DNA of 40,439 nt, from positions 1 through 40,439 of IMG/VR virus record IMGVR_UViG_3300020714_000009, one strand, 5' to 3'. The stretch comes from a virus. Of the stretch, positions 6,994-40,439 are shown piece by piece. The position numbers were made by a program, and so were the translations under genes. Every line of letters starts with the position of its first letter. Position 1 is the stretch's first letter. The notes under the pieces are model-generated. The model was given only the letters and a program-made list of their open reading frames with translations, was not told where the DNA came from and did not search any database.

Positions 6994-8923
6994 GGGCCTT
7001 GCCTTTTTTTCTTACGGGTTTCACACTTTTTTCAAGGGCGCTGATCTTCTGGACGCACCATTTCAGCGCGGCCGTGAGATAAGCGACGTCATGCGTGTAG
7101 TCGCGCGTCAGACGAAATCCGTCTGAGGCAAAGCCGTCAGATTGGGCGAACTCTGGGCCTGGGTCTGGCACAACCGTAACCGCATCCCCGCGACCGTTAA
7201 TAAGTTCCTCCTGCGCGATAAATCCAGCACCCGGACGGTCGTGTATCATGTAAGTGACGGGCCGCCCTCGACTGATCCAGTCTATCGCCTTTTTCGCCGT
7301 TAAATCTTCGATTTTAGTTTTGATCCGAGCGTCTGAAATGGTAAAAAATCCACCAGCAGACATAACAGCAGCGCCGTTTGTTGTCATGCCGACGTTAACT
7401 GACCAAGCGTTTGTTACGAGGCCGAGGGCTGCCGTAAGGTTCCAGCTATTCCCTGTTTGTATCGCTGATCCAGTTGAAACGATGGTTCCCCCGGTCACAG
7501 CGCCGGTGGCAGTGATTCCCCCTCCGGCGGTGAGGTTGTTGGCTATAGCGACGGTGCCGGAAACAGCCGAAATAAGCGTCCCCGCCGTCGGAAGAGTGAC
7601 GCTCGTATTTGCCGTCGTCGTCAACGTCAGGGTGTAAGCACCAACCGTCGTGAACGGGCCGCCCAATGTGACAGACACACCTCCGATCTTGCCGACCGTT
7701 GTCGTGATCGCCGTCGTGCCCGTCCCCGTGGCATCGCCAGACAAGGTGATCGTCTGCACGCCCTGAAATACCGTGTACCAGTTGCCGTTGGCGTCCGTGA
7801 TTAGAAGCGTGGAGTTGCCGGACGCCACGGTGACCGAAACACCGACCGACCCACCATTTATTTTGTCCGCCGCCTGCGGCGTAAGCGTGACCGCTCCGGC
7901 GGTAGCCGAAGCGATCAGAACGTAGTGGGTGGTCAAGGTGGTCGTCAGCGGAAGTGTAATGGTTAGGACCGCCGTGCAGATAAAGACCGTGCCGCCTGCC
8001 GACGTGCTTGGCGACTGGTTCGATGAAACGGTGGCCTCAAGAAAGGCGGCGGTGTTCGATATTCCAAGAATCGCTAACACCGAAGCCGCCGACGGCGCCG
8101 TGAAAATGGACTTGCCTATCGAGGTGCCGCCCAGGTTGGTCAACGCTTGCGTCGCGGACGATGCGCCCGTGCCTCCCGCGGCGATTGCCAGCGATGTCAC
8201 GATCGCCCCGAACGTCAGGAATCCGCCGGATCCGCAAACCAGGATGCCGCTGTTGCCCGGCTGCATGACGAATGTCGCAGCGCCGTTTATGGTCGCGCCG
8301 CCAGAACAGGCAATGGTGAGTGCGCCAGTTCCGGCGTTGTTGACGAGGCATTCCCACCCGGCGGTGAGGTTGGCAATAGTGTCCAGCGTCAATGTGCCGA
8401 CGCCGCCGGTCCAGGTAATTGCCTGGGACCGGTATGCGGCAGTCAGAAGAATGTTGGTATTGAGGGATACCGAGACGCGGTTCGTCTCAAGCGTGGCAGC
8501 AGCCGCCACCAAGCCGGGCCCCGCCAGCGCCGCGGCAGTCGCGACGGCGGTCGTGGCACCCATTTGGATGGCGCCCCAGGACCCGTTGACCGTCGCGTTG
8601 CTGCGAAGAACGATGAGCCAAGACTGGGTGGGCGCGATCGGCACAATGGCGTTGCCGGCCTGGTCGGTGATCGTGAACGAGTTCGATCCGACGTTTGTGA
8701 CCATCGAGACGACGCCGGTAGATCCGGTATTCCCTGGCGGCATTTCAAGCAGCAAGCCGCCGGCCGTTGCGGTGACATCGATCGCCGCGGCCACGTAGGG
8801 TGCAGCGGCCGTCGCCTCCAGCGGCCAGACAAGCGCCGTGTTTGTGCCGATCGTCAACGCCTCATAGGACGGTTGGGCTGGCGCGACCGGCGTGCCGCCG
8901 AAAACACTGGTGTATCCGCTCAT
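6986..8923 (-). CDS. Tail fibre/spike with C-terminal S74 intramolecular chaperone
   Basis: 645 aa. Residues 1-500 are Thr/Gly/Ala/Val-rich beta repeats typical of trimeric fibres. The last 116 residues form an intramolecular chaperone auto-processing (peptidase S74) domain: SDARIKTKIEDL (catalytic Ser530 and Lys535 expected), GAGFIAQEE, DYTHDVAYLTAAL and a terminal coiled coil ALKWCVQKISALE. Family knowledge: the chaperone trimerises the fibre and then cleaves itself off just before the Ser. The C-tail is very basic. Likely the receptor-binding protein. The start overlaps the adaptor stop as ATGA. Confidence 0.85.
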   Translation of the reverse strand: MSGYTSVFGGTPVAPAQPSYEALTIGTNTALVWPLEATAAAPYVAAAIDVTATAGGLLLEMPPGNTGSTGVVSMVTNVGSNSFTITDQAGNAIVPIAPTQSWLIVLRSNATVNGSWGAIQMGATTAVATAAALAGPGLVAAAATLETNRVSVSLNTNILLTAAYRSQAITWTGGVGTLTLDTIANLTAGWECLVNNAGTGALTIACSGGATINGAATFVMQPGNSGILVCGSGGFLTFGAIVTSLAIAAGGTGASSATQALTNLGGTSIGKSIFTAPSAASVLAILGISNTAAFLEATVSSNQSPSTSAGGTVFICTAVLTITLPLTTTLTTHYVLIASATAGAVTLTPQAADKINGGSVGVSVTVASGNSTLLITDANGNWYTVFQGVQTITLSGDATGTGTTAITTTVGKIGGVSVTLGGPFTTVGAYTLTLTTTANTSVTLPTAGTLISAVSGTVAIANNLTAGGGITATGAVTGGTIVSTGSAIQTGNSWNLTAALGLVTNAWSVNVGMTTNGAAVMSAGGFFTISDARIKTKIEDLTAKKAIDWISRGRPVTYMIHDRPGAGFIAQEELINGRGDAVTVVPDPGPEFAQSDGFASDGFRLTRDYTHDVAYLTAALKWCVQKISALEKSVKPVRKKGKARG

Positions 8924-29849: not shown

Positions 29850-29985
29850 TGGGCGCTGGCCGAACGCGGCGTGCGGGTGTCCGTCGATACCGCAATGCCG
29901 CGACCATGGCGGCGGCGCTAGCTGCCGGCGCACTAATTATCAACGATGTTTCCGGGCTGGCGTACGATCCGGCTGCCGCCACGTT
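29850..29985 (+). pseudogene. folP-like (dihydropteroate synthase) remnant
   Basis: Plus strand reads ALAERGVRVSVDTAMP in one frame, then after about 29900 a one-base shift continues ATMAAALAAGALIINDV and SGLAYDPAAA in the next. Joined, this follows the dihydropteroate synthase core (v.vSVDT......AAl.aGa.iINDVsGl..DP). Only about 45 residues are present, with no signature upstream or downstream. Most likely a captured fragment of a host folP gene. The RHH gene's 3' end touches it on the other strand. Confidence 0.45.
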
Positions 29986-30224
29986 CACGCCGGGGCGATT
30001 GGCGGCGGCGTTGGCGGCGGCGGCGGTGCAGCCACCATTGCGTGACGGGGTGGCGGCGAAAGAGCATCGTCCGGCCGCGCCAGTGCGGCCGCACACGCGA
30101 CCAACACCCATCCGGCGAGCGATAGGCCGGCCTCGTCTGCCGACGCTTTCATGGCCGCATGTAGGGCATGCGGGATCCGGATGGGGACCTGCTTAGAGCG
30201 TGCATTGATTGCGCGTGTTGCCAT
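29985..30224 (-). CDS. Ribbon-helix-helix (Arc/CopG-type) regulator, cassette 1
   Basis: 79 aa from ATG 30224. Seen: RSKQVPIRIPHALHAAMKAS as beta-strand and helix A, then DEAGLSLAGWVLVACAAALA as helix B with an SLAGW turn; the tail is Pro/Ala-rich. No Shine-Dalgarno; the start sits inside a perfect 7-bp inverted repeat. It faces three operator copies and a plus-strand operon, so autorepression plus control of that operon is likely. Longer in-frame readings upstream would overlap the operators. Confidence 0.65.
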   Translation of the reverse strand: MATRAINARSKQVPIRIPHALHAAMKASADEAGLSLAGWVLVACAAALARPDDALSPPPRHAMVAAPPPPPTPPPIAPA

Positions 30225-30234
30225 GCCGGCAACA
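30216..30234 (-). promoter_or_regulatory. Inverted repeat over the RHH start codon
   Basis: TGTTGCC, 5-base loop, GGCAACA, perfect over 7 bp, with the RHH ATG (30224-30222) in the centre. It could hide the start codon in mRNA or be an extra operator half-site pair. Confidence 0.4.
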
Positions 30235-30252
30235 TAGCGGACCCGTCCGGGC

Positions 30253-30314
30253 AGTGGGATGCACATATCGCATAAGTGGGATGCAGTATTGTGTGGGTGA
30301 CATAGTGGGATGCA
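30253..30314 (+). promoter_or_regulatory. Triple operator of cassette 1
   Basis: AGTGGGATGCA occurs at 30253-30263, 30275-30285 and 30304-30314 in the same orientation, 22 and 29 bases apart (about two and three helical turns). It lies between the divergent RHH gene and the plus-strand operon; the third copy is in the promoter spacer. Best read as binding sites of the adjacent RHH protein. Confidence 0.65.
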
Positions 30315-30325
30315 CCGAGTATACC
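30297..30325 (+). promoter_or_regulatory. Putative promoter of the plus-strand operon
   Basis: -35 GTGACA (30297-30302), 17-base spacer, -10 TATACC (30320-30325). Operator copy 3 fills most of the spacer, so a bound repressor would block polymerase. The conserved leader begins five bases after the -10. Confidence 0.55.
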
Positions 30326-30330
30326 TCTGA

Positions 30331-30380
30331 TCACCGGACGGCAATGGGCTGGACGGGAAAATGGGAGATAGGATCATGGC
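30331..30380 (+). repeat. Conserved 50-bp leader, copy 1
   Basis: Matches 40061-40110 without gaps at 44 of 50 positions; all six differences are transitions. It starts TCACCGGACGG, contains GGGAG ribosome site, and ends at the ATGGC start of the first gene in each operon. It corresponds to the presumed 5' UTR. Confidence 0.85.
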
Positions 30381-30561
30381 ACGTAACGCGCAATACTCGG
30401 AGCAACCTACCTACGCTGGCGATGCGGCCTATTTGGCTCAATGCGCGCGTAGGGGATGGGAGCCGGACGAGGCAGATTACGCCGAATACATGCACGGGCG
30501 GGGCCTGGATACGTTCGGCCAAGCCCGCTGGTATTATTTTAATCACCCGAGACTTGGCTAG
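30376..30561 (+). CDS. 61-aa small early protein, cassette 1 first gene
   Basis: MARNAQYSEQPTYAGDAAYL, RRGWEPDEADYAEYMHGRG, FGQARWYYFNHPRLG. Acidic, Tyr/Trp-rich, no family recognised. The ATG follows GGGAGATAGGATC at the end of the conserved leader; an ATG five codons earlier lies in the ribosome-site region and is less likely. First gene of the repressible operon. Confidence 0.6.
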   Translation: MARNAQYSEQPTYAGDAAYLAQCARRGWEPDEADYAEYMHGRGLDTFGQARWYYFNHPRLG

Positions 30562-30572
30562 GATACGGAATT

Positions 30573-30803
30573 ATGAGCGAGGTTGTCGTGACCGTCACAG
30601 GCCCAACGGGGAGCGGAAAATCTCGGATCGTGTCCGAGATTGAAATCGCTCTCAAGGCTATCGGCGTCACTGTTCGCTGGACCGATCCGCGTGACCAACG
30701 CGCCGCATCCGAGGAAGCGTGGGCGGAAGCCAATGGCGCATGGCATCCCGATCTACCGACTGTTTGGCTGCAAGAAATCAACATCGTCAACCCGACCGAT
30801 TAA
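30573..30803 (+). CDS. Miniature P-loop protein
   Basis: 76 aa. EVVVTVTGPTGSGKSRIVSE contains a perfect Walker A (GPTGSGKS, residues 10-17) on the first beta-strand, followed by a helix and strand VTVRWTDP. It is too short for a complete NTPase; Walker B is not visible. It could bind a nucleotide or phosphate only, or be a subunit of a larger assembly. AGGA upstream of the ATG. Confidence 0.6.
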   Translation: MSEVVVTVTGPTGSGKSRIVSEIEIALKAIGVTVRWTDPRDQRAASEEAWAEANGAWHPDLPTVWLQEINIVNPTD

Positions 30804-30827
30804 CCCCACCCTATCAGGAGACCGACA

Positions 30828-31004
30828 ATGACCACAATCACACTGACCGCCGAACAGACCGCTATCTATGATGGCGACGACGAAAGCGCCGCACGCGACA
30901 TGATGCGGGCGGTCGTGCGCAACGCGCGGGACATGCTCACCCAGACCGCAGAGCCTGTCACCATCGAGACGGACGACGGCATCGTTGTTGAGTTTGTCGA
31001 GTAG
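30828..31004 (+). CDS. 58-aa small acidic protein
   Basis: MTTITLTAEQTAIYDGDDES, a helix ARDMMRAVVRNARDML, then strands EPVTIETDDGIVVEFVE. Preceded by the recurring ATCAGGAG linker. Alpha/beta miniprotein of unknown role. Confidence 0.6.
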   Translation: MTTITLTAEQTAIYDGDDESAARDMMRAVVRNARDMLTQTAEPVTIETDDGIVVEFVE

Positions 31005-31029
31005 CGCAACCCTATCAGGAGACAGGATC

Positions 31030-31362
31030 ATGCACGACTTCAACACCGACAACACCGACAACACCGAGGGCTACACCGTAGTGCAGTTCGACCGCGAATA
31101 CTACGGTGAGCGGGGCACGGACCGCATCACTTGCCGCTTTTTGAACACCTACACCATGCGCTATCGGCCCGCCGGGTTCGCGACCCTCCCACCCGGCATT
31201 AAATGGGATTACGTCGCAATGCCAAGTCGCTCGGATCTGTTTATCCCGTTCCGCCGCGACCTGCCGGCGGAACCCCGCCATCCTTTCGGCGTTATCCGAA
31301 CCAATAGGCCGCTGACAAGAGATGAAATGAAAATTTACGAGGTTGAGGTAGTTTACGTCTGA
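31030..31362 (+). CDS. 110-aa hypothetical early protein
   Basis: From ATG 31030 after CAGGAGACAGGATC. Seen: an Asp/Asn/Thr-rich start (DFNTDNTDNTEGY), VQFDREYYGERGTDRITC, IKWDYVAMPSRSDLFIPF and LTRDEMKIYEVEVVYV. Compact mixed fold likely; no family recognised. Confidence 0.6.
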   Translation: MHDFNTDNTDNTEGYTVVQFDREYYGERGTDRITCRFLNTYTMRYRPAGFATLPPGIKWDYVAMPSRSDLFIPFRRDLPAEPRHPFGVIRTNRPLTRDEMKIYEVEVVYV

Positions 31363-31374
31363 TTCCCGCACGGT

Positions 31375-31392
31375 CCGGGGCGTGCTCCCCGG
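31375..31392 (+). terminator. GC hairpin after the fourth cassette-1 gene
   Basis: CCGGGG, 6-base loop, CCCCGG, 13 bases after the stop at 31362. No T tract follows. Its right arm is the start of the 25-bp repeat at 31387-31411. Confidence 0.35.
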
Positions 31393-31411
31393 TCCTAGTG
31401 GCGACCAGCCG
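31387..31411 (+). repeat. 25-bp direct repeat, copy 1
   Basis: Identical to 34058-34082. Here it is intergenic, just before a ribosome site; at the other place it lies inside an open frame, just before a second start codon. Confidence 0.85.
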
Positions 31412-31433
31412 ATAACCAACGGGAGACAGGATC

Positions 31434-31724
31434 ATGGACGAGTATATCGTTACCCGCACGAACGAACAACGCTATGTCGTTCGCCGCATCTATAACCGGC
31501 ATGGCGACGCCGATTTTTTGATCGGCTGGGACATCATCTGGGGGCCAGTGTGGAGCAGGCCGCGCGGGAATGCTTTGACTTTCGATGCGGGTGAGGTCCG
31601 GCGGGCGGTGGAGTCTGCTGTGGCCATCATGGCGCCGCGTCCATGGTGCGTGCCTGACTTTGGCACTCATTCGCGCGTACACTCGAGCTATGCGCCCTAT
31701 CCCGGCATGCGGAGGGACGAATGA
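31434..31724 (+). CDS. 96-aa hypothetical early protein
   Basis: MDEYIVTRTNEQRYVVRRIY, FLIGWDIIWGPVWSRPRG, FDAGEVRRAVESAVAIM, Pro/Arg tail. Ribosome site GGGAGACAGGATC is the same as that of other genes in this operon. The beta-strand plus helix pattern suggests a small single-domain protein; family not recognised. Confidence 0.6.
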   Translation: MDEYIVTRTNEQRYVVRRIYNRHGDADFLIGWDIIWGPVWSRPRGNALTFDAGEVRRAVESAVAIMAPRPWCVPDFGTHSRVHSSYAPYPGMRRDE

Positions 31725-31745
31725 TGCTGACCGCGTCGCCCCCGC

Positions 31746-31892
31746 TCACGGACAACGGATCATACTCACACCACGCAACCGCCGGGCCACCAGCGCAGCC
31801 CGAAGCGCCGCGCGTTGCTCAGGCTCAGGTCTAGCTGGCAGCGCCTCTAAATCGTCCTCGGCCATATCGGCGTAGGCATCCGCCGCTTGCAT
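31746..31892 (-). CDS. 48-aa helical miniprotein on the minus strand
   Basis: MQAADAYADMAEDDLEALPA then PEPEQRAALRAALVARRLRG, ending ISMIRCP-like. Start ATG 31892 follows AAGGCTAGG. Its composition is more natural than that of the overlapping plus-strand frame. It converges with the 31434 gene and overlaps the recombinase remnant start. Unknown role. Confidence 0.4.
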   Translation of the reverse strand: MQAADAYADMAEDDLEALPARPEPEQRAALRAALVARRLRGVSMIRCP

Positions 31893-32021
31893 CCTAGCCT
31901 TGCGCACGCGGCGGGGGAAACGCCCACGCAGATAGCGAAGCGCATGGGCATCGCACGCAGCAGCGTCTACCGCTTCCTGGCCGCATCCAAGGGCGATTCT
32001 GACGCAGTTAGAGCCGACTGA
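31851..32021 (+). pseudogene. Serine-recombinase C-terminal HTH remnant
   Basis: The open frame between TAA 31848 and TGA 32019 reads AAGETPTQIAKRMGIARSSV and YRFLAA near its end. This is the C-terminal HTH of Hin/resolvase-type serine recombinases (G.t..eIAk.lGi.rsSVYR.L). The catalytic domain is absent and there is no good start, so it is most likely a leftover of a lost mobile element. Confidence 0.55.
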
Positions 32022-32083
32022 CCGTGCGTAAGGTCAACTAATGTCGTCAGATTTCAATGCCTTGCCGTGAACAAACGGGCAAT

Positions 32084-32833
32084 TCAGCCTTCGAACTCAA
32101 TCTCGCGCGCCTCGCCCTCAATCAGGTGCGCGCCCGACTCCAGGGACGCGAGGTCCGCCAGCAGCGTCTTGCGCGCGGAGCTGGCACGCTCGGCAACCAG
32201 CACGTTGACCGTGACGCCGGCGCCTCCGGTTTTTTCGGCATAGTTGTCGGGATCCAACTTGCTGGCGAGGTATTTGAACGCGTCGAACTTAAGTCTGGCC
32301 AAATTCGCGACGCGCGGATCGGTCGCTTCGGCCACGATCAACGCCCCCTTTTCGACCCACCATTGGGCTTGTGTGCGGCGCGTTTGGGTGTAGAGGGGAC
32401 GAAATGCGGGGTTGCTTTCGAGCCATCGAATCACCGAGAAATAAGACGGCATATCGGGATCGTCGCATATTGAGGTCAGGAACTCACCGTGGGCCATGCG
32501 TGCGCAGACTTCGGTGAAGATTTCGACGCTGCATGTTGAGGGTCGGCCGATGTGCCGTGGGGACGGTTTGAGGGCGAGATAGCTGTTGTCTGCTGTTGCG
32601 TCGTCCGAGGTTGCTGCGGGGGACGTGGTGCCTGTATCTGGTGTAGGCTTTTTTTTGCGCTTTGAGCCGGGCTTGGGGCCGCGCTTTTTTGGGTGGGCCT
32701 TGGCGTAGGCTTTTGATCGGGCGCGTGCTGCTGCCTTGCGTGGGCTGACCTTGCGGCCGGGCTTGAGTTTGCGCTTGACCAGGTCCTGGCTGGCGTCGGT
32801 TTCGGGCGCTGGTGTTGGTGCTGTTGTGTCCAT
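32084..32833 (-). CDS. terS: Terminase small subunit (Sf6 gp1-like) with basic N-terminal extension
   Basis: 249 aa from ATG 32833 (GGAAAG upstream). Residues 95-145 hold the HTH: HIGRPSTCSVEIFTEVCARM, EFLTSICDDPDMPSYFSVIR, NPAFRPLYTQTRRTQA; then ARLKFDAFKYLASKLDPDNY, the oligomerisation/core block of Sf6-type small terminases. Residues 19-63 are Lys/Arg/Ala/Pro-rich (KAHPKKRGPKPGSKRKKK) like AT-hook or histone-H1 tails. It binds the packaging start site and recruits TerL. An alternative start at 32920 has a stronger GGAGG site but adds rare-codon sequence. Confidence 0.75.
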   Translation of the reverse strand: MDTTAPTPAPETDASQDLVKRKLKPGRKVSPRKAAARARSKAYAKAHPKKRGPKPGSKRKKKPTPDTGTTSPAATSDDATADNSYLALKPSPRHIGRPSTCSVEIFTEVCARMAHGEFLTSICDDPDMPSYFSVIRWLESNPAFRPLYTQTRRTQAQWWVEKGALIVAEATDPRVANLARLKFDAFKYLASKLDPDNYAEKTGGAGVTVNVLVAERASSARKTLLADLASLESGAHLIEGEAREIEFEG

Positions 32834-33208
32834 AGGTTGCGATCTTTCCAGGGTCGCTGCTGGTTTGTCCAGCGGTAGCTCTCGCGTGTGCGCGGGGTAC
32901 CAGTATATGGCTCTCCCCATCTCTCCCCCTCCCCTCTCTTCCCCTCTCGTGGCGTGGCGTGTCAAGGGGTTTGTTGGCTTGTCGTTTTTTGACGGTTTGT
33001 GGGGGTTGTTGGGGCGCGACGGTTGGCCTCTCTATATGGATGAGGCGATAGGGCTAATATTTATTCGTTTTTTGACGTTTTTGTGGTAGACGGACGCGAT
33101 CATTGACGCCTATAGGGGGTCTATGGACGGATGTGCGGCGATTGTTTGACGGGGGATGCCAGGTCCCTGCCGCGTTGTCCGGTTTAGAGAGAGAGAGGAA
33201 CCAATCTG
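32834..33208. other. Divergent gap between terS and the early array
   Basis: About 375 bases. It holds a polypyrimidine tract on the plus strand at 32911-32948 (CT-rich, so AG-rich upstream of terS), T-rich runs near 33058-33085 and a GAGAGAGAGAGG ribosome-site run at 33187-33198. No clear promoter hexamer pair is seen. This is a natural place for opposing promoters. Confidence 0.35.
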
Positions 33209-33451
33209 ATGACCAGGAACTACAACAATGTCCCGATGATCGGCATCACGGATACCGATTACGATACCCTGCTGTGTCACCTGTCCGAGCAGGTCGCGGC
33301 GTGCATGCCGCCGCACCTCGGGTGCCAGCGAAACAACGCCGCGACCGACGCGCTGGCCAATACGTGGCAGCCTGAGATGACCGCTCGGGAGTGGCTCGCG
33401 GCTGCAGGTAGGCTTTTAGGCTGCGATACCAGCGCATGCGTGGGGGCGTGA
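33209..33451 (+). CDS. 80-aa hypothetical early protein
   Basis: MTRNYNNVPMIGITDTDYDT, LLCHLSEQVAACMPPHLGC, PEMTAREWLAAAGRLLG. Ribosome site GAGAGGAACC. Four to five Cys and a helical C-terminus. First gene of the main plus-strand array. Family not recognised. Confidence 0.6.
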   Translation: MTRNYNNVPMIGITDTDYDTLLCHLSEQVAACMPPHLGCQRNNAATDALANTWQPEMTAREWLAAAGRLLGCDTSACVGA

Positions 33452-33454
33452 ATC

Positions 33455-33652
33455 ATGGATAAAAAAACGATCAAGGTGTCGGTGCGTTCGGTTTATGGCC
33501 GGGAGACGGTGTATCCCGCTTGCCCTGACGCCGCGGCGTTCGCGGAACTGACCGGGAACAAGACGCTGACGGATAGTGCGTTGGAGCTGATTGAGCGGCT
33601 GGGCTACACCGTCGAGGTTGTAGCGCCTGCCATTACTCGGAGGGCTGCGTGA
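33455..33652 (+). CDS. 65-aa hypothetical early protein
   Basis: MDKKTIKVSVRSVYGRETVY, AAFAELTGNKTLTDSALEL, TVEVVAPAITRRAA: a beta-helix-beta small protein. GGGGGCG upstream. Stop overlaps the next start (TGATG). Confidence 0.6.
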   Translation: MDKKTIKVSVRSVYGRETVYPACPDAAAFAELTGNKTLTDSALELIERLGYTVEVVAPAITRRAA

Positions 33653-34482
33653 TGGGCTACACCGTTTTCGACAACCGCGTTGGCTTTCGGATTGGCGTCG
33701 ATCTACGGGGCCTCTCCGAAGCGGACGCGGCGCGGGAGCTACTGACCGAGGGTGACGGTTATACCCACGAAATTCGCCGCGACGATGCCGGCGACGGCTG
33801 GACGCTTTGGACATCGCTGGCCTCGTCCGCGTCGCCCGCTGGTGGCAGGATGGCGAAAACCGGCGCCTACAGCCTTTTGGCCGACGAAGAAGCCGCGACG
33901 GCGGAGATATATGCCGAAGTGGTGCGACGCTGCCTGCGTGGCGCCAACTGGGGCGGGCGTCTGTCTGTCATGACGGACGCTGAATACGACGCGATTGAGG
34001 TTGAGGCGCGCGGGGCGACCTGGACCGCGAATCAATCGTGGAACCCGGACAAGCCCCCCCCGGTCCTAGTGGCGACCAGCCGGCAACAGAGAGGACTCAC
34101 GACAATGACCACGAAACACGAATCCGCCGCCCGCGCCGCGACACTGGGCGCGCAACTGGCCCTACACGGCGCGGCGAGCGTACCGCCCCCGCCCCCTCAC
34201 GTCATCGGCAGGCTTGTGGCCACGATGCAACGCGACGCCCGATCCGCCGTCGCATGGGAAACGGCGCGCTGCAGCTATCCGATGACGGAGAAACAGAAGG
34301 ATCGCGGGCAGGCGCGCATCGAACGGCTGCAACGCGTCGTGAATATCGCGCTGGAGCTATCCTTCCCGTGCGATCCCCCGACGGTCAGCTATGGGGGCGA
34401 TCCGCGCGGCCCGTGCGCCTTCCTACGTATCCCTGGCGTTCGCGGGGACCTGCGGGGCGATGACGCCTTCGCGGTCTACTGA
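33652..34482 (+). CDS. Composite 276-aa early protein (probable in-frame fusion)
   Basis: N-terminal part (1-135): MGYTVFDNRVGFRIGVDLRG, LLADEEAATAEIYAEVVRR, SVMTDAEYDAIEVEARGA. At about residue 136 the frame runs through the 25-bp repeat that is intergenic elsewhere, then reaches an internal ATG (34105) with GAGAGGAC upstream. The second part, MTTKHESAARAATLGAQLAL through PCAFLRIPGVRGDL, looks like an independent protein. Either a fused two-domain protein or two genes with 34105 as the second start. Neither part has a recognised family. Confidence 0.55.
   Translation: MGYTVFDNRVGFRIGVDLRGLSEADAARELLTEGDGYTHEIRRDDAGDGWTLWTSLASSASPAGGRMAKTGAYSLLADEEAATAEIYAEVVRRCLRGANWGGRLSVMTDAEYDAIEVEARGATWTANQSWNPDKPPPVLVATSRQQRGLTTMTTKHESAARAATLGAQLALHGAASVPPPPPHVIGRLVATMQRDARSAVAWETARCSYPMTEKQKDRGQARIERLQRVVNIALELSFPCDPPTVSYGGDPRGPCAFLRIPGVRGDLRGDDAFAVY
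34058..34082 (+). repeat. 25-bp direct repeat, copy 2
   Basis: Identical to 31387-31411; marks the junction between the two halves of the composite open frame and precedes the internal ribosome site. Confidence 0.85.
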
Positions 34483-34483
34483 C

Positions 34484-34696
34484 ATGAGCGCTACAACGCT
34501 GCTCTACGGCGGCCCGCACTATGAGGCTTGCTGGATTGCTGGCCCTCACGGTGGCCTATGCGTGACGCGCGCGCGGGCACGTGGTGGCGTGAAGTTTCCC
34601 GATGCGGGCGGAGTGTGGCGCGAGGCGTTCGCCTCCGCGATTGACGACGACGAACGGCACGCACTGTGCCGAACCCTCATACACGAAAGGTTCTGA
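34484..34696 (+). CDS. 70-aa small early protein, paralog A
   Basis: MSATTLLYGGPHYEACWIAG, PHGGLCVTRARARGG, WREAFASAIDDDERHALCRT. It has a full-length paralog at 36561-36773 that matches along its whole length (YxGPxYEACWxxGPHGG). The 3' 70 bases are nearly identical in DNA. Function unknown; the next gene is coupled by a three-base gap. Confidence 0.65.
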   Translation: MSATTLLYGGPHYEACWIAGPHGGLCVTRARARGGVKFPDAGGVWREAFASAIDDDERHALCRTLIHERF

Positions 34697-34752
34697 CCAT
34701 GGGCTGGTTAATTTCCTACAAAAAGCTGCGGCTTGGCGAAACCGTCGATAGC
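34625..34752 (+). repeat. 128-bp near-identical repeat, copy 1
   Basis: Matches 36702-36830 with only a few differences and one inserted A between the two genes. It covers the 3' end of a 70-aa gene, the spacer and the first 18 codons of the following gene. Confidence 0.85.
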
Positions 34753-35289
34753 CGGATGCGCGACAACATGCGCTGGGATCGACACGACGCCTCCACGGGC
34801 GAGAAGCATGAAATCGCGGCATCCGCGACGGTGGGATCGACGTGGTACGCCGCCGTGCGGCACACCCGCGCCGATGGCACATTCGAGACGTTCGCCATTA
34901 TCTGCCTTACGTCCAAGGGCAGCCGAAAGCGTGGCGACGGGTTTGGCTACAAGGACATGAGCGAGGACATGGGGCCGTTGGAATGTTCTTGTCCAGCCCG
35001 CATCCTGGACCTGTTGACGCCAACGGACAGCGAATACGCGAACGATTGGCGCCGGCGGTGCAGGGATCGCGCGAAAGCATCCCGCCAGCGGCGCGCATCC
35101 GCCCCCAAGCCCGGCGCCCGAGTGACGTTTAACCCGCCGATCATGTACGGCGGCCAGCCGCTTGCCGAATTTATCATCATCCCCAACCCGCCACGGACGC
35201 GAGGGCTGATCGCAGAACGTGCCGACGGGTTGGGTGGCGTGTACCGCCTGCCAATGGACCGGCTGGCTGACGCCACAATTACCGCCTGA
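34699..35289 (+). CDS. DUF6927-like protein
   Basis: 196 aa. MGWLISYKKLRLGETVDSRM, VGSTWYAAVRHTRADGTFE, FAIICLTSKG, GFGYKDMSEDMGPLECSCP, ILDLLTPTDSEYANDWRRRC. The order 'MGWL.y ... vgs.WYaAv ... vvfLt ... WGYKDM.E.mGP.e..cP..iL.lL.p......a..WR..C' fits the DUF6927-like family of alphaproteobacterial phages and plasmids, function unknown. ATG 34699 follows GAAAGG. A truncated second copy starts at 36777. Confidence 0.7.
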   Translation: MGWLISYKKLRLGETVDSRMRDNMRWDRHDASTGEKHEIAASATVGSTWYAAVRHTRADGTFETFAIICLTSKGSRKRGDGFGYKDMSEDMGPLECSCPARILDLLTPTDSEYANDWRRRCRDRAKASRQRRASAPKPGARVTFNPPIMYGGQPLAEFIIIPNPPRTRGLIAERADGLGGVYRLPMDRLADATITA

Positions 35290-35325
35290 CCGCCGCCTAA
35301 CCCACCAACAGGAGGAACCGACACC

Positions 35326-35883
35326 ATGAACGACAATCTGACCATGACGCTGGCGCAAATACGCGAGCGCCGCCCCTGCGAGAACGGCTGGAAAACACTA
35401 CTGGCAAGCCTCGGAGGCGCCAGCACGAGTCTGGCGACTCGTGTGTCCCTTGGCGACATAGCCAGGAGTAACGGCCCGGCGGACGCATGGTGGTGTGTCC
35501 GCGTGCTGGACTGGTCCGACGCGACGGTACGACGCCGGGTTGTGAGCGTGCTGCTGCTGACTGTCCGCCGGGCCGCAACGCACACAACGGACGAGCGGGT
35601 CCACGCTTGTATCGATGCCGTGCAACGCTGGTGCGATGGCGATAATTCCGTCGATTTAGAAGCGGCGGCGCTGGCGGCGGAGGCGGCGGAGGCGGCGGCG
35701 CTGGCGGCGGAGGCGGCGGCGCAGGCGGCGTGGGCGGCGGAGGCGGCGGCGCAGGCGGCGTGGGCGGCGGCGGGGGCGGCGGAGGCGGCGGCGGATGCGG
35801 AGGCGCTGGCGGCGGAGGCGGCGGCGCGGGCGGACCTGATCGCCGCATTTCCCCCTCTGTTTAACCCCTACAGAGGAACCTGA
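35326..35883 (+). CDS. Early protein with Ala-rich helical tail
   Basis: 185 aa. Core 1-110: MTLAQIRERRPCENGWKTLL, SLGDIARSNGPADAWWCVRV, then TTDERVHACIDAVQRWCDGD. Residues 110-168 are Ala/Glu/Gln/Trp repeats (EAAAQAAWAA) predicted to form one long helix. Phage proteins with 'iR...pC..GW..LL..Lg' followed by 'A..AA' repeats are widespread, function unknown. Ribosome site AGGAGGAACC. A second copy begins at 40316. Confidence 0.7.
   Translation: MNDNLTMTLAQIRERRPCENGWKTLLASLGGASTSLATRVSLGDIARSNGPADAWWCVRVLDWSDATVRRRVVSVLLLTVRRAATHTTDERVHACIDAVQRWCDGDNSVDLEAAALAAEAAEAAALAAEAAAQAAWAAEAAAQAAWAAAGAAEAAADAEALAAEAAARADLIAAFPPLFNPYRGT
35656..35832 (+). repeat. GGCGGAGGC-type repeat encoding the Ala tail
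   Basis: Includes a perfect 30-bp unit twice (35710-35739 and 35740-35769). Read in the gene frame it gives Ala/Glu/Gln/Trp; in another frame it would give Gly, as the related repeat at 450-599 does. Confidence 0.8.
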
Positions 35884-35884
35884 C

Positions 35885-36157
35885 ATGGCAAACACCTGGG
35901 ACGACACACCGATGACACGCTGCGCGACCGCCGCGCTACCGGTGTTGATCGACGCACACGCCTATTTTCATGGGCTTGGCGCGCCGAAGGCCACTAGGAT
36001 CGCGGAACGCATCGCGGGGCTGCTGGAGCAAATCATCGACTGCGCTGGCGATGTGCAGGCGTACGGCAATAGCTGGACCGGCGGGCGCGGGCGCGAACTG
36101 GCTGATCGGGCGTACGAAGCGACCCGCGAGTACGACAAAATCACGAATGGCGAGTGA
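35885..36157 (+). CDS. 90-aa hypothetical early protein
   Basis: MANTWDDTPMTRCATAALPV, LIDAHAYFHGLGAPKATRIA, LLEQIIDCAGDVQAYGNSW: mostly helical, possibly a four-helix miniprotein. AGAGGAAC ribosome site, one base after the previous stop. Family not recognised. Confidence 0.6.
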   Translation: MANTWDDTPMTRCATAALPVLIDAHAYFHGLGAPKATRIAERIAGLLEQIIDCAGDVQAYGNSWTGGRGRELADRAYEATREYDKITNGE

Positions 36158-36257
36158 GACTCCCCTGACGCCACCCGCTGCGGCGGATGGCGACACGGCA
36201 GCCTTATCCAGCAGGCCCCTGCCAGGGGGCGAACACCAGAGAGAGGACACCAGAGAC

Positions 36258-36524
36258 ATGCGAACCACGATCATCGCCGCCGCCCTGACCATCGCGGCCG
36301 GCACAGCCCATGCCGACCCGGTGTGCATGAGGCCCGCCGATCTTGTTTGGGCGCCAAAGGCGATCCAGCACGATTTCGCGACCATCGACATTATGAAACG
36401 CGGTTGCGTCACCAGCCCGCAAATCATGGGGTACCTCGCGGCGCTGAAGGAACTGCGCGCCGACGCCAAGGGCACCAGCCGACGGGACCGCATCTGGGCG
36501 ATCATGTCCCGCGAAAATCCCTGA
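36258..36524 (+). CDS. 88-aa secreted small protein
   Basis: MRTTIIAAALTIAAGTAHAD is a classical Sec signal peptide with AHA cleavage site near residue 19. Mature part: PVCMRPADLVWAPKAIQHDF, IMKRGCVTSPQIMGYLAALK, two Cys that could form a disulfide, helical C-terminus. It would act in the periplasm or outside; superinfection or lysis functions are possible but not shown. Confidence 0.65.
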   Translation: MRTTIIAAALTIAAGTAHADPVCMRPADLVWAPKAIQHDFATIDIMKRGCVTSPQIMGYLAALKELRADAKGTSRRDRIWAIMSRENP

Positions 36525-36560
36525 CCCGACACCGCCCCACCAAAGACAAGGACCCCAACC

Positions 36561-36773
36561 ATGCCCCTCACCACGCTCATCTACAGCGGCCCGAGTTACG
36601 AGGCCTGCTGGCTGGACGGACCCCATGGCGGGGTTGTGGTGACACGCAAACGGGCGCGGGACGGGATCACATACCGCGACCTTGGCGGGCTTTGGCGCGA
36701 TGCGTTCGCCTCCGCGATTGACGACGACGAACGGCACGCACTGTGCCGAACCCTCCTACATGAAAGGTTCTGA
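36561..36773 (+). CDS. 70-aa small early protein, paralog B
   Basis: MPLTTLIYSGPSYEACWLDG, PHGGVVVTRKRARDG, WRDAFASAIDDDERHALCRT. Paralog of 34484-34696. The N-terminal halves have diverged more than the 3' DNA, suggesting recent gene conversion or duplication through the 128-bp repeat. Confidence 0.65.
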   Translation: MPLTTLIYSGPSYEACWLDGPHGGVVVTRKRARDGITYRDLGGLWRDAFASAIDDDERHALCRTLLHERF

Positions 36774-36830
36774 CAAATGGGCTGGTTAATTTCCTACGAA
36801 AAGCTGCGGCTTGGCGAAACCGTCGATAGC
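36702..36830 (+). repeat. 128-bp near-identical repeat, copy 2
   Basis: Second copy of 34625-34752. Sequence similarity ends abruptly at 36830, inside the start of the truncated DUF6927-like copy. Confidence 0.85.
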
Positions 36831-36848
36831 TGGGACAGCGCAGCATGA
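36777..36848 (+). pseudogene. Truncated DUF6927-like copy
   Basis: 23 codons: MGWLISYEKLRLGETVDS matches the N-terminus of the intact gene at 34699, then WDSAA and a stop. Its TGA overlaps the next ATG as ATGA, so it may persist as a leader that feeds ribosomes to the membrane-protein pair. Confidence 0.65.
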
Positions 36849-37000
36849 TCGGCGACACGCCAGCGGAGGCGTGGTTGCGATCCTGCCCGCCGTTGCCGCC
36901 ACGCCGTCGCAGGGCGCTGCGCCGGCAGGTTTGGATCATCCTAACGTTGCTGGTCATCGTGGCCGTGCTGGCAGGCTTGGCGGGGACGTACAGGCTATGA
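36845..37000 (+). CDS. 51-aa single-span membrane protein
   Basis: MIGDTPAEAWLRSCPPLP, an Arg cluster PRRRRALRRQ, then a membrane helix VWIILTLLVIVAVLAGLAG and short TYRL tail. Basic residues before the span predict N-in topology. Overlaps the next membrane-protein gene as ATGA. Size fits small holin-, antiholin- or superinfection-type proteins, none proven. Confidence 0.6.
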   Translation: MIGDTPAEAWLRSCPPLPPRRRRALRRQVWIILTLLVIVAVLAGLAGTYRL

Positions 37001-37176
37001 GCGCGCTCTCCGAAGGCTGCCTCGCGTTGCTGCTGATCTTCGGGCTGGTCGCAGTGACGGTCGGGGGATACCGACCGCTCAACGCGGCCGAGCGCGCAGG
37101 CTGGCACGCCTATCAACAGCGGCTGGCAGCGGCGAAACGCGCCACCCCCGCGCAACGGGAAGGGACCAACCGATGA
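36997..37176 (+). CDS. 59-aa membrane-anchored protein
   Basis: N-terminal span LALLLIFGLVAVTVGGY (residues 9-25), then a basic/Gln/Ala helix AGWHAYQQRLAAAKRAT. Coupled to the 51-aa membrane gene and to the next gene by ATGA overlaps. The layout resembles a small inner-membrane spanin- or holin-like protein but lacks a recognisable family signature. Confidence 0.55.
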   Translation: MSALSEGCLALLLIFGLVAVTVGGYRPLNAAERAGWHAYQQRLAAAKRATPAQREGTNR

Positions 37177-37370
37177 AACATAAAATCTGGGTATCGACCG
37201 TCACGCATCGCCACGGCACGAATAGCCATGCGGCGGGAAGCGAAGCGGGCTGCCGGCTTTACGGGTCCGACGTCACCAACATCGACGCGGGCGCCTACGC
37301 CAGCCGGGGCGAAGATGGCGTGCGGGTCGCAGCGTGGGTGCTGGTCCCCAACGAGAAAGCCGCGTCATGA
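37173..37370 (+). CDS. 65-aa hypothetical early protein
   Basis: MKHKIWVSTVTHRHGTNSHA, CRLYGSDVTNIDAGAYASR, VRVAAWVLVPNEKAAS. Strand-rich, small; ATGA overlaps on both sides. Family not recognised. Confidence 0.6.
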   Translation: MKHKIWVSTVTHRHGTNSHAAGSEAGCRLYGSDVTNIDAGAYASRGEDGVRVAAWVLVPNEKAAS

Positions 37371-37891
37371 CCGGCGCCACGCGCCCGTTCGTCTACGCGG
37401 AAATCGGCACCGTATGCGAGGGCGCCGACACCCTGCGCAAGCAGCTATCCGCGTTCGCCGAGGAGCTGCAACGGCAAATTTCGCGCCAGCGCGCCGGATA
37501 CCCGAAGACACGCGGCGCGGCCAAAATGCTGGTCATCGTGTCGCGCTCCAAGCTGGCGGACCCGGACTACGACATCACGGATCGGGATGTGTGGGAGGTG
37601 TCCGACATGCTGGCGCATTTCGCCCCGCCCTATGTCTCATTCGACAAGGCGGCGGCGGCCGATGGGCGCTACGGCTTCCACGTGGACGCCATGGCGCTGG
37701 AGGAGGGAATGGCTAACGGTAGCGTGCTGGTGGTGCGCAAGTTCAGCGAGATTCCGCGCCAGCACGGCCGCGGCGTGGCCATGATCCACCCCGATGGCAC
37801 CGTGTCGTACTTTGCCCGCCGCCGCGCCGGGCTGGACCGCTTATGGGGACCGGTCGCGGTGTACGCCCCGACAAAGACAGAGAAGGACTGA
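37367..37891 (+). CDS. 174-aa hypothetical early protein
   Basis: Start ATG 37367 (ATGA overlap). MTGATRPFVYAEIGTVCEGA, ADTLRKQLSAFAEELQRQ, MLVIVSRSKLADPDYDITD, MLAHFAPPYVSFDKAA, VLVVRKFSEIPRQHGRG. Mixed alpha/beta, acidic centre; no family recognised. Confidence 0.6.
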   Translation: MTGATRPFVYAEIGTVCEGADTLRKQLSAFAEELQRQISRQRAGYPKTRGAAKMLVIVSRSKLADPDYDITDRDVWEVSDMLAHFAPPYVSFDKAAAADGRYGFHVDAMALEEGMANGSVLVVRKFSEIPRQHGRGVAMIHPDGTVSYFARRRAGLDRLWGPVAVYAPTKTEKD

Positions 37892-37893
37892 CC

Positions 37894-38142
37894 ATGCCGA
37901 CGATCTACTACACCTTGGACGCGGACGGTGCCTACATCTGGCGCGATGCCCGCATACTCGAATGCTCCTCTTTGGAGTCGGCCACCCGGATGCTTTTGGC
38001 CGACTACGATCCCCGCGACTGGGACCACACCAGCGCGAAGATCGGGTTTGGCTTCTGGCCAATGGACAATCTGACGCTGCAACAGCGGCAGACGCTTGTT
38101 GTCACCAAGATCAACCCCACCAATCGGAGAAACAGGTCATGA
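37894..38142 (+). CDS. 82-aa hypothetical early protein
   Basis: MPTIYYTLDADGAYIWRDAR, LECSSLESATRMLLADYDP, IGFGFWPMDNLTLQQRQTL. Starts two bases after the previous stop; its stop overlaps the next ATG. The C-terminal codons (TKINPTNRRN) run through a copy of the CCCCACCAA linker that is intergenic elsewhere. Confidence 0.6.
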   Translation: MPTIYYTLDADGAYIWRDARILECSSLESATRMLLADYDPRDWDHTSAKIGFGFWPMDNLTLQQRQTLVVTKINPTNRRNRS

Positions 38143-38612
38143 AATACCCAATCCGCGTCTGGGAAGAACAGACGCTGTTTGACTGCGCCGACTACATGAT
38201 CGAGGCCGGCAGCCCCGAGGAAGCGGCAATTATCGCGAAGGAGTTGACGCTGGCCGCGCGCGATGCTGACTCGCCCGTCCCCGATATCCGCGTCACGACA
38301 CTCGACCCCGGCGGGTTCGACGACGTGGTGCCGCTGGACCCTCACGAGGTCGTGGACTCCTTTCTTGGCGTCACGTTGCTGGACGCCAACCGTGCGCGGC
38401 TTCGCGACCTACTGCCAAAGCGGGCGTTCAGTCTGGACGACAGCAGCATGATCGCTGCTAAGTTTAAGAACGCGGCAGAAATTGTCACCGTCATGGCGGA
38501 TGCACTTCGCGCGGCTTACCGACAACTGCGAAGCCCCGACTCCCCGACGATGGTTGGTGAGGCGCTTCGCAAGGTTGATTCCGCACTTCGGGTGGCGGGA
38601 GAACCGACATGA
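38139..38612 (+). CDS. 157-aa hypothetical early protein
   Basis: MKYPIRVWEEQTLFDCADYM then AGSPEEAAIIAKELTLAAR (beta-helix start), a middle LDPHEVVDSFLGVTLLD, and a helical C-terminus KFKNAAEIVTVMADALRAAY. Possibly two small domains; no family recognised. Ribosome site CGGAGAAACAGG. Confidence 0.6.
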   Translation: MKYPIRVWEEQTLFDCADYMIEAGSPEEAAIIAKELTLAARDADSPVPDIRVTTLDPGGFDDVVPLDPHEVVDSFLGVTLLDANRARLRDLLPKRAFSLDDSSMIAAKFKNAAEIVTVMADALRAAYRQLRSPDSPTMVGEALRKVDSALRVAGEPT

Positions 38613-38869
38613 CGCCAGAGGAATCCTTGCGCCGCATTTACGAGGCGTTCAACGATCAGGACGGCAGCTACTGGGCCGACAACGTGCTCCGGACGATCCG
38701 CGACACGATGGAAGACGATCCGACCTTACGTGTGCGCGGCGTCGGTCGTGTGGCCGATGAACCGCGCGCACTGCTGGTGCTGCTGACAGACATCCCGACC
38801 GACAACCAACTCCGCGAAATGCACGACTACTTGCGTGAGTGGAAGCGAGACTATGAGGATATGACATGA
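38609..38869 (+). CDS. 86-aa hypothetical early protein
   Basis: MTPEESLRRIYEAFNDQDGS, NVLRTIRDTMEDDPTLRVRG, LLVLLTDIPTDNQLREMHDY: acidic helical protein coupled on both sides. Family not recognised. Confidence 0.6.
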   Translation: MTPEESLRRIYEAFNDQDGSYWADNVLRTIRDTMEDDPTLRVRGVGRVADEPRALLVLLTDIPTDNQLREMHDYLREWKRDYEDMT

Positions 38870-39027
38870 CGTTCCCGCGTCCAACGTGGAACCCGCACCG
38901 CGAACCCTGCGGAGAATGCCACCTACAAGACGGCGAGACTTGCGACATATGCGGCGCCAGCGTGCCGCTTGACCCCGACCGCCTCCGCGATGACCGCGAC
39001 GAACGCCGCCGGCTGGCGAAAGAGTAG
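38866..39027 (+). CDS. 53-aa zinc-ribbon miniprotein
   Basis: Cys15-x2-Cys18 and Cys26-x2-Cys29 (EPCGECHLQ, ETCDICGAS) form a C4 ribbon, followed by an Arg/Asp-rich tail. Last gene of the plus array; ATGA overlap with the previous gene and a hairpin 25 bases later. It could bind DNA, RNA or a host protein. Confidence 0.6.
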   Translation: MTFPRPTWNPHREPCGECHLQDGETCDICGASVPLDPDRLRDDRDERRRLAKE

Positions 39028-39051
39028 CCCTACACCGACGCCTAACCCCTC

Positions 39052-39065
39052 GGGGCTTTAGCCCC
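39052..39065. terminator. Hairpin at the convergent junction
   Basis: GGGGCT, TT, AGCCCC: perfect 6-bp stem, also CCCCTCGGGG just before. It lies between the end of the plus array (39027) and the minus gene ending at 39149. No U tract on either side, so termination may depend on Rho or on both strands' context. Confidence 0.45.
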
Positions 39066-39148
39066 ACCTTGGAAGGAAATCACGGAGAACCGGCGTTTGG
39101 GACATGGCGTCGGTGTCCCGCATGCGTAAGGTTCCCTATCTCGTGGCG

Positions 39149-39430
39149 TTATTGCTGGTCTTCACGGTCACGCGCCAAATTCATTTCGTGCGCTAGCCGG
39201 CTCAAACACCCTAGCATTCGAGACGTATCGACGCGGCCAGCCCATGCGCTGATATACGACATGCCGTCCGATCGGATTTCAACCCAACATGCCCCAATGG
39301 TTTCTCCCGACCTCGCCCGTTTAAGGGTTTCTTCGAGGCGTTCGACAAGACCGGCATCCGGGATGGTCACGCCATAGACACAAACCCCAGGCATAAAGGC
39401 AATGTTTCCGTTATCAGCTGCTTCGGTCAT
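39149..39430 (-). CDS. 93-aa hypothetical protein
   Basis: From ATG 39430: MTEAADNGNIAFMPGVCVYG, LVERLEETLKRARSGETIG, DGMSYISAWAGRVDTSRML. A TTG seven codons earlier (39451) is an alternative. Last gene of the small minus operon headed by the second RHH gene. Family not recognised. Confidence 0.6.
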   Translation of the reverse strand: MTEAADNGNIAFMPGVCVYGVTIPDAGLVERLEETLKRARSGETIGACWVEIRSDGMSYISAWAGRVDTSRMLGCLSRLAHEMNLARDREDQQ

Positions 39431-39443
39431 GCTTCGGCCCCGC

Positions 39444-39689
39444 TCATCCAAACCTTATCTTTTCCAACTCAGCGATTGCCTTTCGGTGGTATTCGATCTT
39501 GGCTTGGCGCATTTTATCGGCGCGAGCGTTCGCGGCTTCGGCGGATGTGTGCCAATGAGGCTTGCTGTAATATAATCGTGATACCGATACACCGATATCG
39601 ATTATATTTGGATATTCGTCTGAAAATATCTCCCCGTTCGCTTCGAAAATCCCTTTCGTCAGCGCGTATTTCGTGATCCATACCTTCAC
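39444..39689 (-). CDS. 81-aa small phage protein
   Basis: MKVWITKYALTKGIFEANGE, RLYYSKPHWHTSAEAANARA, MRQAKIEYHRKAIAELEKI. 'MKVWITKYALT.GI.E.....' plus 'W..t..eA..rAe.mr..Ki....k.i..l' is a common small protein of alphaproteobacterial phages, function unknown. ATGA overlap with the RHH gene upstream. Confidence 0.65.
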   Translation of the reverse strand: MKVWITKYALTKGIFEANGEIFSDEYPNIIDIGVSVSRLYYSKPHWHTSAEAANARADKMRQAKIEYHRKAIAELEKIRFG

Positions 39690-39955
39690 TTCTCTTCCCC
39701 TTTTGTCGAATTATCGCCGATAACCTTCCATCCGTTAGCGATGATGCGTTCCACCGCCACCGTTGCGGGAGGCGACGCCAGCGGCGGGGACGGTTCGATT
39801 TCCGCCCCAATGCCAAAGCCGAACCACGCCTCAAGCGCATCGGTGATGACAACGCGGAGCACGACCCGCCGCTTCTTTGCCTCCGCCTGGGCGGCATCGA
39901 AAAGCGCGGTCGGCACGCGGACGAATAACGGGGTGTGATCTTCGAGCTTTTGCAT
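39686..39955 (-). CDS. RHH-type regulator, cassette 2
   Basis: 89 aa from ATG 39955 (a GTG two codons earlier is possible). Seen: DHTPLFVRVPTALFDAAQAE as strand and helix A, KKRRVVLRVVITDALEAWFG as helix B, then a Pro-rich linker and a short VERIIANGWKVIGDN tail. It sits divergent to a plus-strand operon behind three CGATATC operators, mirroring the cassette at 29985-30380. It heads a three-gene operon with 39444 and 39149. Confidence 0.6.
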   Translation of the reverse strand: MQKLEDHTPLFVRVPTALFDAAQAEAKKRRVVLRVVITDALEAWFGFGIGAEIEPSPPLASPPATVAVERIIANGWKVIGDNSTKGEEK

Positions 39956-39977
39956 GCCCACACCATACCGATGGATT

Positions 39978-40045
39978 CGATATCTTATGTATGGGAATAT
40001 GCGATATCAGGTATGCGCGAATTAGCCTTTTATTCGATATCGAAT
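39978..40045 (+). promoter_or_regulatory. Triple operator of cassette 2
   Basis: CGATATC at 39978-39984, 40002-40008 and 40035-40041, 24 and 33 bases apart. The last copy is the centre of a perfect 14-bp palindrome ATTCGATATCGAAT (40032-40045). AT-rich island in otherwise GC-rich DNA; presumed sites of the adjacent RHH protein. Confidence 0.6.
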
Positions 40046-40056
40046 TGCCGCATAAC
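40028..40056 (+). promoter_or_regulatory. Putative promoter of cassette 2
   Basis: -10 CATAAC (40051-40056) lies four bases before the conserved leader, as in cassette 1. A -35 would be TTTTAT (40028-40033), 17 bases upstream, which is weak; the palindromic operator covers the spacer. Position, more than sequence, supports it. Confidence 0.4.
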
Positions 40057-40060
40057 CCCT

Positions 40061-40110
40061 TCACCGGACGGCGATGGGCTGGACGGGGGAATGGGAGACG
40101 GGACCATGGC
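40061..40110 (+). repeat. Conserved 50-bp leader, copy 2
   Basis: 44 of 50 positions identical to 30331-30380, ungapped, ending at the start codon of the first gene. Confidence 0.85.
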
Positions 40111-40291
40111 CAAAGACATTTGGATTGCTGATGAAACCGGTCGCTGGATCGGCTGCGTGCGGAAGCAAATCGACGGGTGGGACGCCTTAAACTTGACACT
40201 CTCGGATTCCTACCACTTCGACACCAAAAAGGAAGCGACGAATTTCGTCCATGCCTATTTTGGGCCAATCGCTCGCAAATACGCCGCCTAA
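40106..40291 (+). CDS. 61-aa small protein, cassette 2 first gene
   Basis: MAKDIWIADETGRWIGCVRK, ALNLTLSDSYHFDTKKEAT, FVHAYFGPIARKYAA. A beta-meander plus helix with 'd.....eAt.F' typical of tiny phage alpha/beta proteins. It is the same length as the first gene of cassette 1 but unrelated in sequence. GGGAGACGGGACC ribosome site lies in the leader. Confidence 0.6.
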   Translation: MAKDIWIADETGRWIGCVRKQIDGWDALNLTLSDSYHFDTKKEATNFVHAYFGPIARKYAA

Positions 40292-40315
40292 CCCCACCAA
40301 CCGGAGGAATCCACG

Positions 40316-40439
40316 ATGAACGACAACCTGACCATGACGCTGGCGCAGATACGCGAGCACCGGCCATGCGAGGACGGCTGGAAAACACTGCTGGCCAGTC
40401 TCGGTGGCGCTCGAGCACCCCTCACGACACGCGTGTCTT
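40316..40439 (+). CDS. Second copy of the Ala-tail protein (3' end outside window)
   Basis: MNDNLTMTLAQIREHRPCED, GWKTLLASLGGARAPLTTRV: nearly the same N-terminus as the gene at 35326, including the CCACCAAC-GGAGGAA linker upstream. Runs off the right edge after 41 codons, so the presence of an Ala-rich tail cannot be judged. Confidence 0.65.
   Translation, partial: MNDNLTMTLAQIREHRPCEDGWKTLLASLGGARAPLTTRVS

Follow-up and report, generated by a model that had tools for sequence, protein, structure and literature searches.

Results

Two early units of a phage start with nearly the same predicted RNA hairpin

The IMG/VR virus record IMGVR_UViG_3300020714_000009 (40,439 bp, GC 62%; "the window" hereafter means this whole stretch) contains two divergent control regions, A and B, with one layout: a minus-strand gene for a ribbon-helix-helix (RHH) type regulator, three spaced repeats, a -10 element, a 50-bp leader and a 61-amino-acid (aa) gene. 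We consider it probable that these regions place a host-type core promoter and 5′ hairpin leader, adopted by phages of Caulobacter-like bacteria, under two separate autoregulatory RHH switches. As the original prediction for this DNA had stated, the leaders (30331-30380 in A and 40061-40110 in B) are identical at 44 of 50 positions (blastn self-match, E 7e-11), and this identity ends abruptly on both sides. Their 27-bp core occurred twice in the window at up to 3 mismatches and in none of 100 shuffles. The parts of the two leaders are:

30331..30357, + strand: leader core A, 5′ RNA hairpin CCG[GA]CGGC-AAUGG-GCUG[GA]CGG; fold z -4.7; 27/27 in a second phage; covariation with host leaders
30358..30375, + strand: Shine-Dalgarno part of leader A, GGGAGATAGGATC; resembles other gene-start sequences of unit A
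40061..40087, + strand: leader core B, hairpin as in core A except for A to G in the loop; fold z -5.4
40088..40105, + strand: Shine-Dalgarno part of leader B, GGGAGACGGGACC

The phage cores (loop RAUGG) fold at -12.5 to -13.5 kcal/mol, with a non-canonical G-A opposition in the stem, and in the predicted transcript context the pair probabilities are about 0.99 while the Shine-Dalgarno sequence is left free. Rfam returned nothing above the gathering cutoffs, either for the control region (searched at E up to 5) or for three host loci. Two further ideas were discarded. Five of the six A/B differences alter codon meaning in the gene's frame, which argues against a conserved coding sequence. A CCCT 5′ of the hairpin might pair with the Shine-Dalgarno sequence, but it precedes the point at which the RNA is predicted to begin.

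Operators, leader and regulator are shared with an unrelated phage

A leader-core pattern scan over 2.9 million viral contigs, the kind of search that the original prediction had called for, found one further phage, IMGVR 3300032223_001328 (L005, L038, L039). It is a 31-kb contig of a contractile-tailed myophage whose terminase, portal and structural genes differ from those of the window. When it was compared with the whole window, convincing DNA similarity was confined to gene-start sequences, to cassette A at 30055-30378 (E 4e-88) and, with E 8e-9, to leader B and the -10 preceding it. Inside cassette A the operator triplet is identical at 29 of 30 positions and is accompanied by the DNA-binding half of the regulator RHH A (147 of 174 nucleotides identical in the N-terminal coding part), whereas the spacer matches at only 18 of 38 (47%; Fisher p 6e-6). 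The leader core is identical (27/27) and the Shine-Dalgarno stretch matches at 10 of 18 positions. Operator spacing is 22/28 in the second phage versus 22/29 in the window, and homology stops at the start codon of gene 1, which in the second phage encodes an unrelated protein of 78 aa. The alignment is, in sequence terms, a footprint of operators and leader, and the presence of operators, leader and part of RHH A in two otherwise unrelated phages indicates that the cassette travels between them as a unit.

These data also bear on whether the two copies are functionless products of recent gene conversion or duplication in one phage, as 44/50 identity within a single genome might suggest. The abrupt edges of identity and the intact core in an unrelated phage, whose neighbouring non-operator DNA is at 47%, speak against such an origin; with the host leaders described below added to the second phage, we find it hardly credible.

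Further searches gave less. The leader was not found in the nearest terminase relatives (L009, L010; parts of Caulobacter phage GB2A). The early region of GB2A (L070) has its own duplicated promoter- or leader-like element at 5696-5780 and 7205-7296 (78% identity, ending in GGAGAC), which is unrelated in sequence. Relaxed hairpin patterns also matched viral and genome contigs other than the known phage contigs; these sites, most of them in apparent coding sequence, had unrelated surroundings and were judged to be chance.

The leader has a counterpart before a microprotein gene of the probable host

A covariance model (R1) whose only input was the three phage leaders, two from the window and one from the second phage, gave a single match (47.8 bits) over 398 Pseudomonadota genomes. 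Over 249 genomes of the family of that genome it gave seven, at one syntenic locus (thioesterase-like, DUF2256 and histone-deacetylase-like genes) and in the same position before the same gene for a 32-aa membrane microprotein. With the host leaders added to the model (R2), 18 of 398 genomes from the order matched, 17 before this microprotein gene, and at a loose threshold each of four genomes searched had one strong copy; E-values are rough owing to a shortened calibration, and the recurrent position before one orthologous gene is independent of them. A weak R2 match without the core, in the leader of a sigma-32-like gene (L106), was excluded from the host leaders. No Pfam or NCBIfam model matched the microprotein.

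The host unit consists of a -10, the CACCGGACG hairpin, a Shine-Dalgarno sequence and the ATG, in the order and spacing seen in the phages. It differs from the phage leaders in having no operator triplet upstream, another gene downstream and a changed inner stem sequence in which pairing is kept. Phage leaders are followed by unrelated first genes (61 aa in the window, 78 aa in the second phage) and not by a 32-aa membrane protein; therefore, they are leaders of this type rather than members of that locus. The shared part runs from the -10 to the ATG, and upstream of it stand operators in the phages and other conserved DNA in the hosts. This host DNA (L074:1420-1500 and orthologues) contains a strongly conserved TTAAAAT..GGCGTAATGAAGCAAAGGTAACG, in which TTAA-N7-GTAA resembles a CtrA box. 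The hosts would be Caulobacter or a near relative, because over 202 aa the CtrA proteins of two host genomes show 100% identity to what we take to be the Caulobacter crescentus sequence.

Across host and phage leaders, 100% of the hairpin cells were paired and both sides had changed in three pairs (C-G/U-A, C-G/G-C and C-G/G-C); one of the two alignments was structure-fitted, hence biased toward structure, and had one doubtful row, and a free MAFFT alignment gave the same result. None of 500 shuffles reached the covariation score, and sliding the partners lowered pairing to 26-56%. The repeat might instead be a DNA element, either a promoter/discriminator or the site of an RHH-independent regulator, with an incidental hairpin potential; it does begin at the predicted start site, includes the conserved -10 and is GC-rich. 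The compensatory changes and the loss of pairing in slid structures make this very unlikely.

Each leader stands behind its own regulator and operator triplet

The components of the two switches are:

29985..30224, - strand: RHH A, 79-aa RHH regulator with YlcI/YnfO-type N-terminus and Pro-rich tail (NF041551, PF05534, phrog_949)
30253..30263, + strand: operator A1, AGTGGGATGCA, exact copy
30275..30285, + strand: operator A2, AGTGGGATGCA, exact copy
30304..30314, + strand: operator A3, AGTGGGATGCA, between -35-like and -10-like hexamers
30298..30326, + strand: promoter-like GTGACA-17-TATACC of unit A, -10-like TATACC at 30321-30326; under the strict scan threshold
39686..39955, - strand: RHH B, Arc-like, 89 aa from ATG (91 aa from GTG at 39961); phrog_6506, E 2e-4
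39975..39984, + strand: operator B1, ATTCGATATC
39999..40008, + strand: operator B2, ATGCGATATC
40032..40045, no strand assigned: operator B3, ATTCGATATCGAAT, perfect 14-bp palindrome just 5′ of the -10-like element
40051..40056, + strand: -10-like CATAAC of unit B; aligns with TATAAC of the second phage and TATATC of host leaders

Both triplets are present with the spacings originally described, 22/29 in A and 24/33 in B, and each adjoins the gene of its own RHH-type regulator. No further copy of operator A exists in the window at 0 or 1 mismatch, and three copies arose in 0 of 2000 shuffles. For operator B, AT[TG]CGATATC is the better consensus (39975, 39999 and 40032); as the bare 7-mer, the operator reached three copies in 34 of 2000 shuffles, which is moderately unusual and, taken alone, weaker than A. 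The -10-like hexamers precede the leader by 4-5 bases in both regions. A third operator inside the promoter spacer had been claimed for both; this holds for A, where the spacer is 17 bp. B3 is located shortly before the -10-like element. The second phage keeps the geometry of unit A as ATGACG-17-TATAAC, with the spacing and the TGAC/TATA letters retained in the alignment. Judged from these sequences, promoter geometry is convincing for A and weaker for B.

RHH A is of the YlcI/YnfO / HicB type (NF041551, 42.3 bits, cutoff 30; PF05534, 23 bits, cutoff 21; phrog_949, E 6.5e-8), has a 74% identical homologue in the second phage and gave a modest, low-confidence structure model with two helices (19-32 and 36-49). 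The RHH DNA-binding domain to be expected of an autorepressor is thus found in RHH A and only weakly indicated in RHH B. A repeated operator conserved together with its adjacent gene is seen for A (29/30 in the second phage); B has the repeats and no homologue for comparison. Neither protein matched the phage collection. On the RHH A mRNA, the leader (30224-30250, minus strand) is identical at 27 of 28 positions between the two phages and contains CCGGACGG again. A 7-bp hairpin, UGUUGCC-GGCAU-GGCAACA, places the start codon at its loop.

The proposal that the whole switch had been duplicated is not supported, as the RHH proteins match different families and gave no BLASTP alignment, and the operators and first genes are unrelated. 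Likewise, the idea that regulators and operators had diverged while the leader had not survives in its second half: the leader is conserved amid differing surroundings. The two switches are better seen as repressor/operator pairs that were presumably acquired independently, before one type of leader, because RHH A and RHH B match different families and do not align. The two may be insulated from each other, as first suggested; this fits their differing operators. Arc and Mnt are likewise RHH proteins with different operators. These two small repressors occur together in the immunity I region of phage P22 (PMC2629481), where they control one antirepressor region; the window phage instead has two separate units with a common RNA leader.

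Genes behind the leaders and genome context

The genes of the two units are:

30376..30561, + strand: gene 1 of unit A, 61 aa, without a family match
30573..31724, + strand: rest of unit A, small open reading frames from 30573 (P-loop-like), 30828, 31030 and 31434, several with CCTATCAGGAGAC-type gene-start repeats
40106..40291, + strand: gene 1 of unit B, 61 aa, not related to gene 1 of A
40316..40439, + strand: second gene of unit B, cut at the contig end, paralogue of 35326-35883 (self-blast 35291-35420 / 40282-40410, 87.8%)

Both first genes thus have the predicted length of 61 aa. The gene-start repeat CCTATCAGGAGAC..GATCATG stands at several early genes of both phages (30810 and 31011 in the window; 10459, 10724 and 11000 in contig L039 of the second), and no other viral contig matched its degenerate form. 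The hairpin is confined to the first genes of the units, beside a -10, and is absent at internal genes. This distribution bears on the view that the leader is a start-associated module, serving translation initiation or an RNA-binding regulator on both units independently of the RHH proteins. The leader does end at the start codon, and recurrence of the gene-start repeat recalls the start-associated sequences (SAS) and extended SAS (ESAS) of cluster K mycobacteriophages, described in the available parts of PMC3203893 and PMC11373665 as short start-codon-adjacent repeats, a subset of which has a promoter and an inverted repeat. In those excerpts, ESAS has 17-bp imperfect arms in a 46-47-bp promoter motif, as opposed to a 23-nt hairpin after the -10 here, and no host counterpart is mentioned; sequence and host phylum are different, and the likeness is one of position only. 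The window gene-start sequence, CCTATCAGGAGAC, does not fit the SAS/ESAS consensus GGGATAGGAGCCC. Since the hairpin itself is limited to first genes, we regard a start-associated module as rather unlikely.

In the left 28 kb of the window lie the large terminase and structural genes that read leftward. A relative by terminase with 62% identity is an 88-kb contig with 127-bp end repeats, so the window probably represents about half of a genome. Two other contigs come from the same phage, identical to the window over the compared stretches, and one extends 278 bp past its right end. Describing the DNA as having two early modules was a simplification. Units A and B exist; unit A is short (30376 to about 31724, ~1.4 kb) and is followed by opposing genes, among them the gene at 32084-32965 for an Sf6-type small terminase. 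Another rightward unit, the third, begins near 33209 and lacks the leader, and unit B, starting at 40106, is truncated where the contig ends. The control region of the third unit (32966-33208) has three copies of a TTTTTTGACGG-like 11-mer (32985, 33068 and 33142; spacing 83/74) ahead of the 33209 gene and no hairpin leader. The early region seems to expand through local duplication, because it holds paralogous gene pairs (34493-34755 / 36570-36833, 80% DNA identity, and the 87.8% pair listed above). A low-complexity GC-rich repeat is common to the left end (432-593) and, in opposite orientation, to 35659-35833 in the gene at 35326, which encodes Ala/Glu repeats.

Discussion

Under the reading that we favour, each of the two early units would start at a core promoter and leader of the type used for the host 32-aa microprotein gene. 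At the start of infection, with no repressor present, both promoters would fire. Each accumulating RHH protein would then bind its own operators (the third being within or beside the promoter spacer) and repress its own gene together with its unit; A and B would act independently because the RHH/operator pairs are unrelated. The transcript is predicted to begin within about one nucleotide of the hairpin stem, which would form with a probability of about 0.99 and leave the Shine-Dalgarno sequence free. Operator binding, autorepression, RNA start sites and the direction of transfer from host to phage are all inferred here from DNA and protein sequence.

What the hairpin does may be approached by analogy. 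Stem-loops at the 5′ terminus, such as those of ompA and papA mRNAs, should hinder 5′-end-dependent decay, and to stabilise they require structure only. Literature listed in PMC3997798 describes these two mRNAs as starting with a stem-loop preceded by almost no unpaired nucleotides, as would be the case here; the phage leader is, by contrast, conserved in sequence besides structure. Our leading guess is that the hairpin shields the mRNA 5′ end from such decay; a host factor may read it as well or instead. A specific reader is conceivable, as the phage copies are strongly conserved in sequence and not in pairing alone. A more far-reaching version, which we put forward tentatively and hold to be possible rather than probable, is that some factor of the Caulobacter-like host (RNA polymerase, an RNA-binding protein or a decay enzyme) reads the leader sequence-specifically, and that unrelated phages exploit it, passing the leader between them as one unit that combines with interchangeable repressor/operator modules.

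Several observations weigh against a host-type promoter and leader under two RHH switches. A strict E. coli-type sigma-70 scan called no promoter in region A or B, and no convincing -35 was found in unit B. RHH B counts only weakly as an RHH protein, as its profile match is weak, Pfam gave no match and its low-confidence model did not suffice for a fold search. Across the three phage copies the core is more nearly identical than a purely structural stabiliser would require. Finally, phage and host leaders are about 65-75% identical; therefore, direct recent capture is not established, and the leaders may share descent via other phages or have converged under a host rule.

Sequence conservation and the G-A opposition in the stem would also suit a cis-acting antitermination or anti-pausing RNA, in which the nascent hairpin binds RNA polymerase and allows read-through of long early units. 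Phage HK022 likewise has a pair of related structured RNAs, putL and putR, each located at or close to the 5′ end of an early transcript (PMC9378689). The accessible portion of that source gives put RNAs a length of about 70 nt and two stem-loops and mentions no host homologue, whereas the phage leader forms a single 23-nt hairpin, without an Rfam match. Moreover, unit A is short, the excess of terminator-like sites in this region is modest (14 against an expected 8, standard deviation 3.2), and before a single 32-aa gene in the host such an RNA would be of little use. We hence judge antitermination improbable, and return to a host-type leader under phage operators as the favoured account.

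Repeated phage leaders such as SAS, ESAS and put are well known as sequences, and their functions are mostly open or phage-specific. Here, one structured leader occurs in two unrelated phages and in the chromosomes of their probable host. The phage promoter is cut exactly at the -10, with a host-type signal downstream and phage operators upstream. The leader allows two uncultured phages to be assigned a probable host and, as this host has good genetics, its function would be directly testable.

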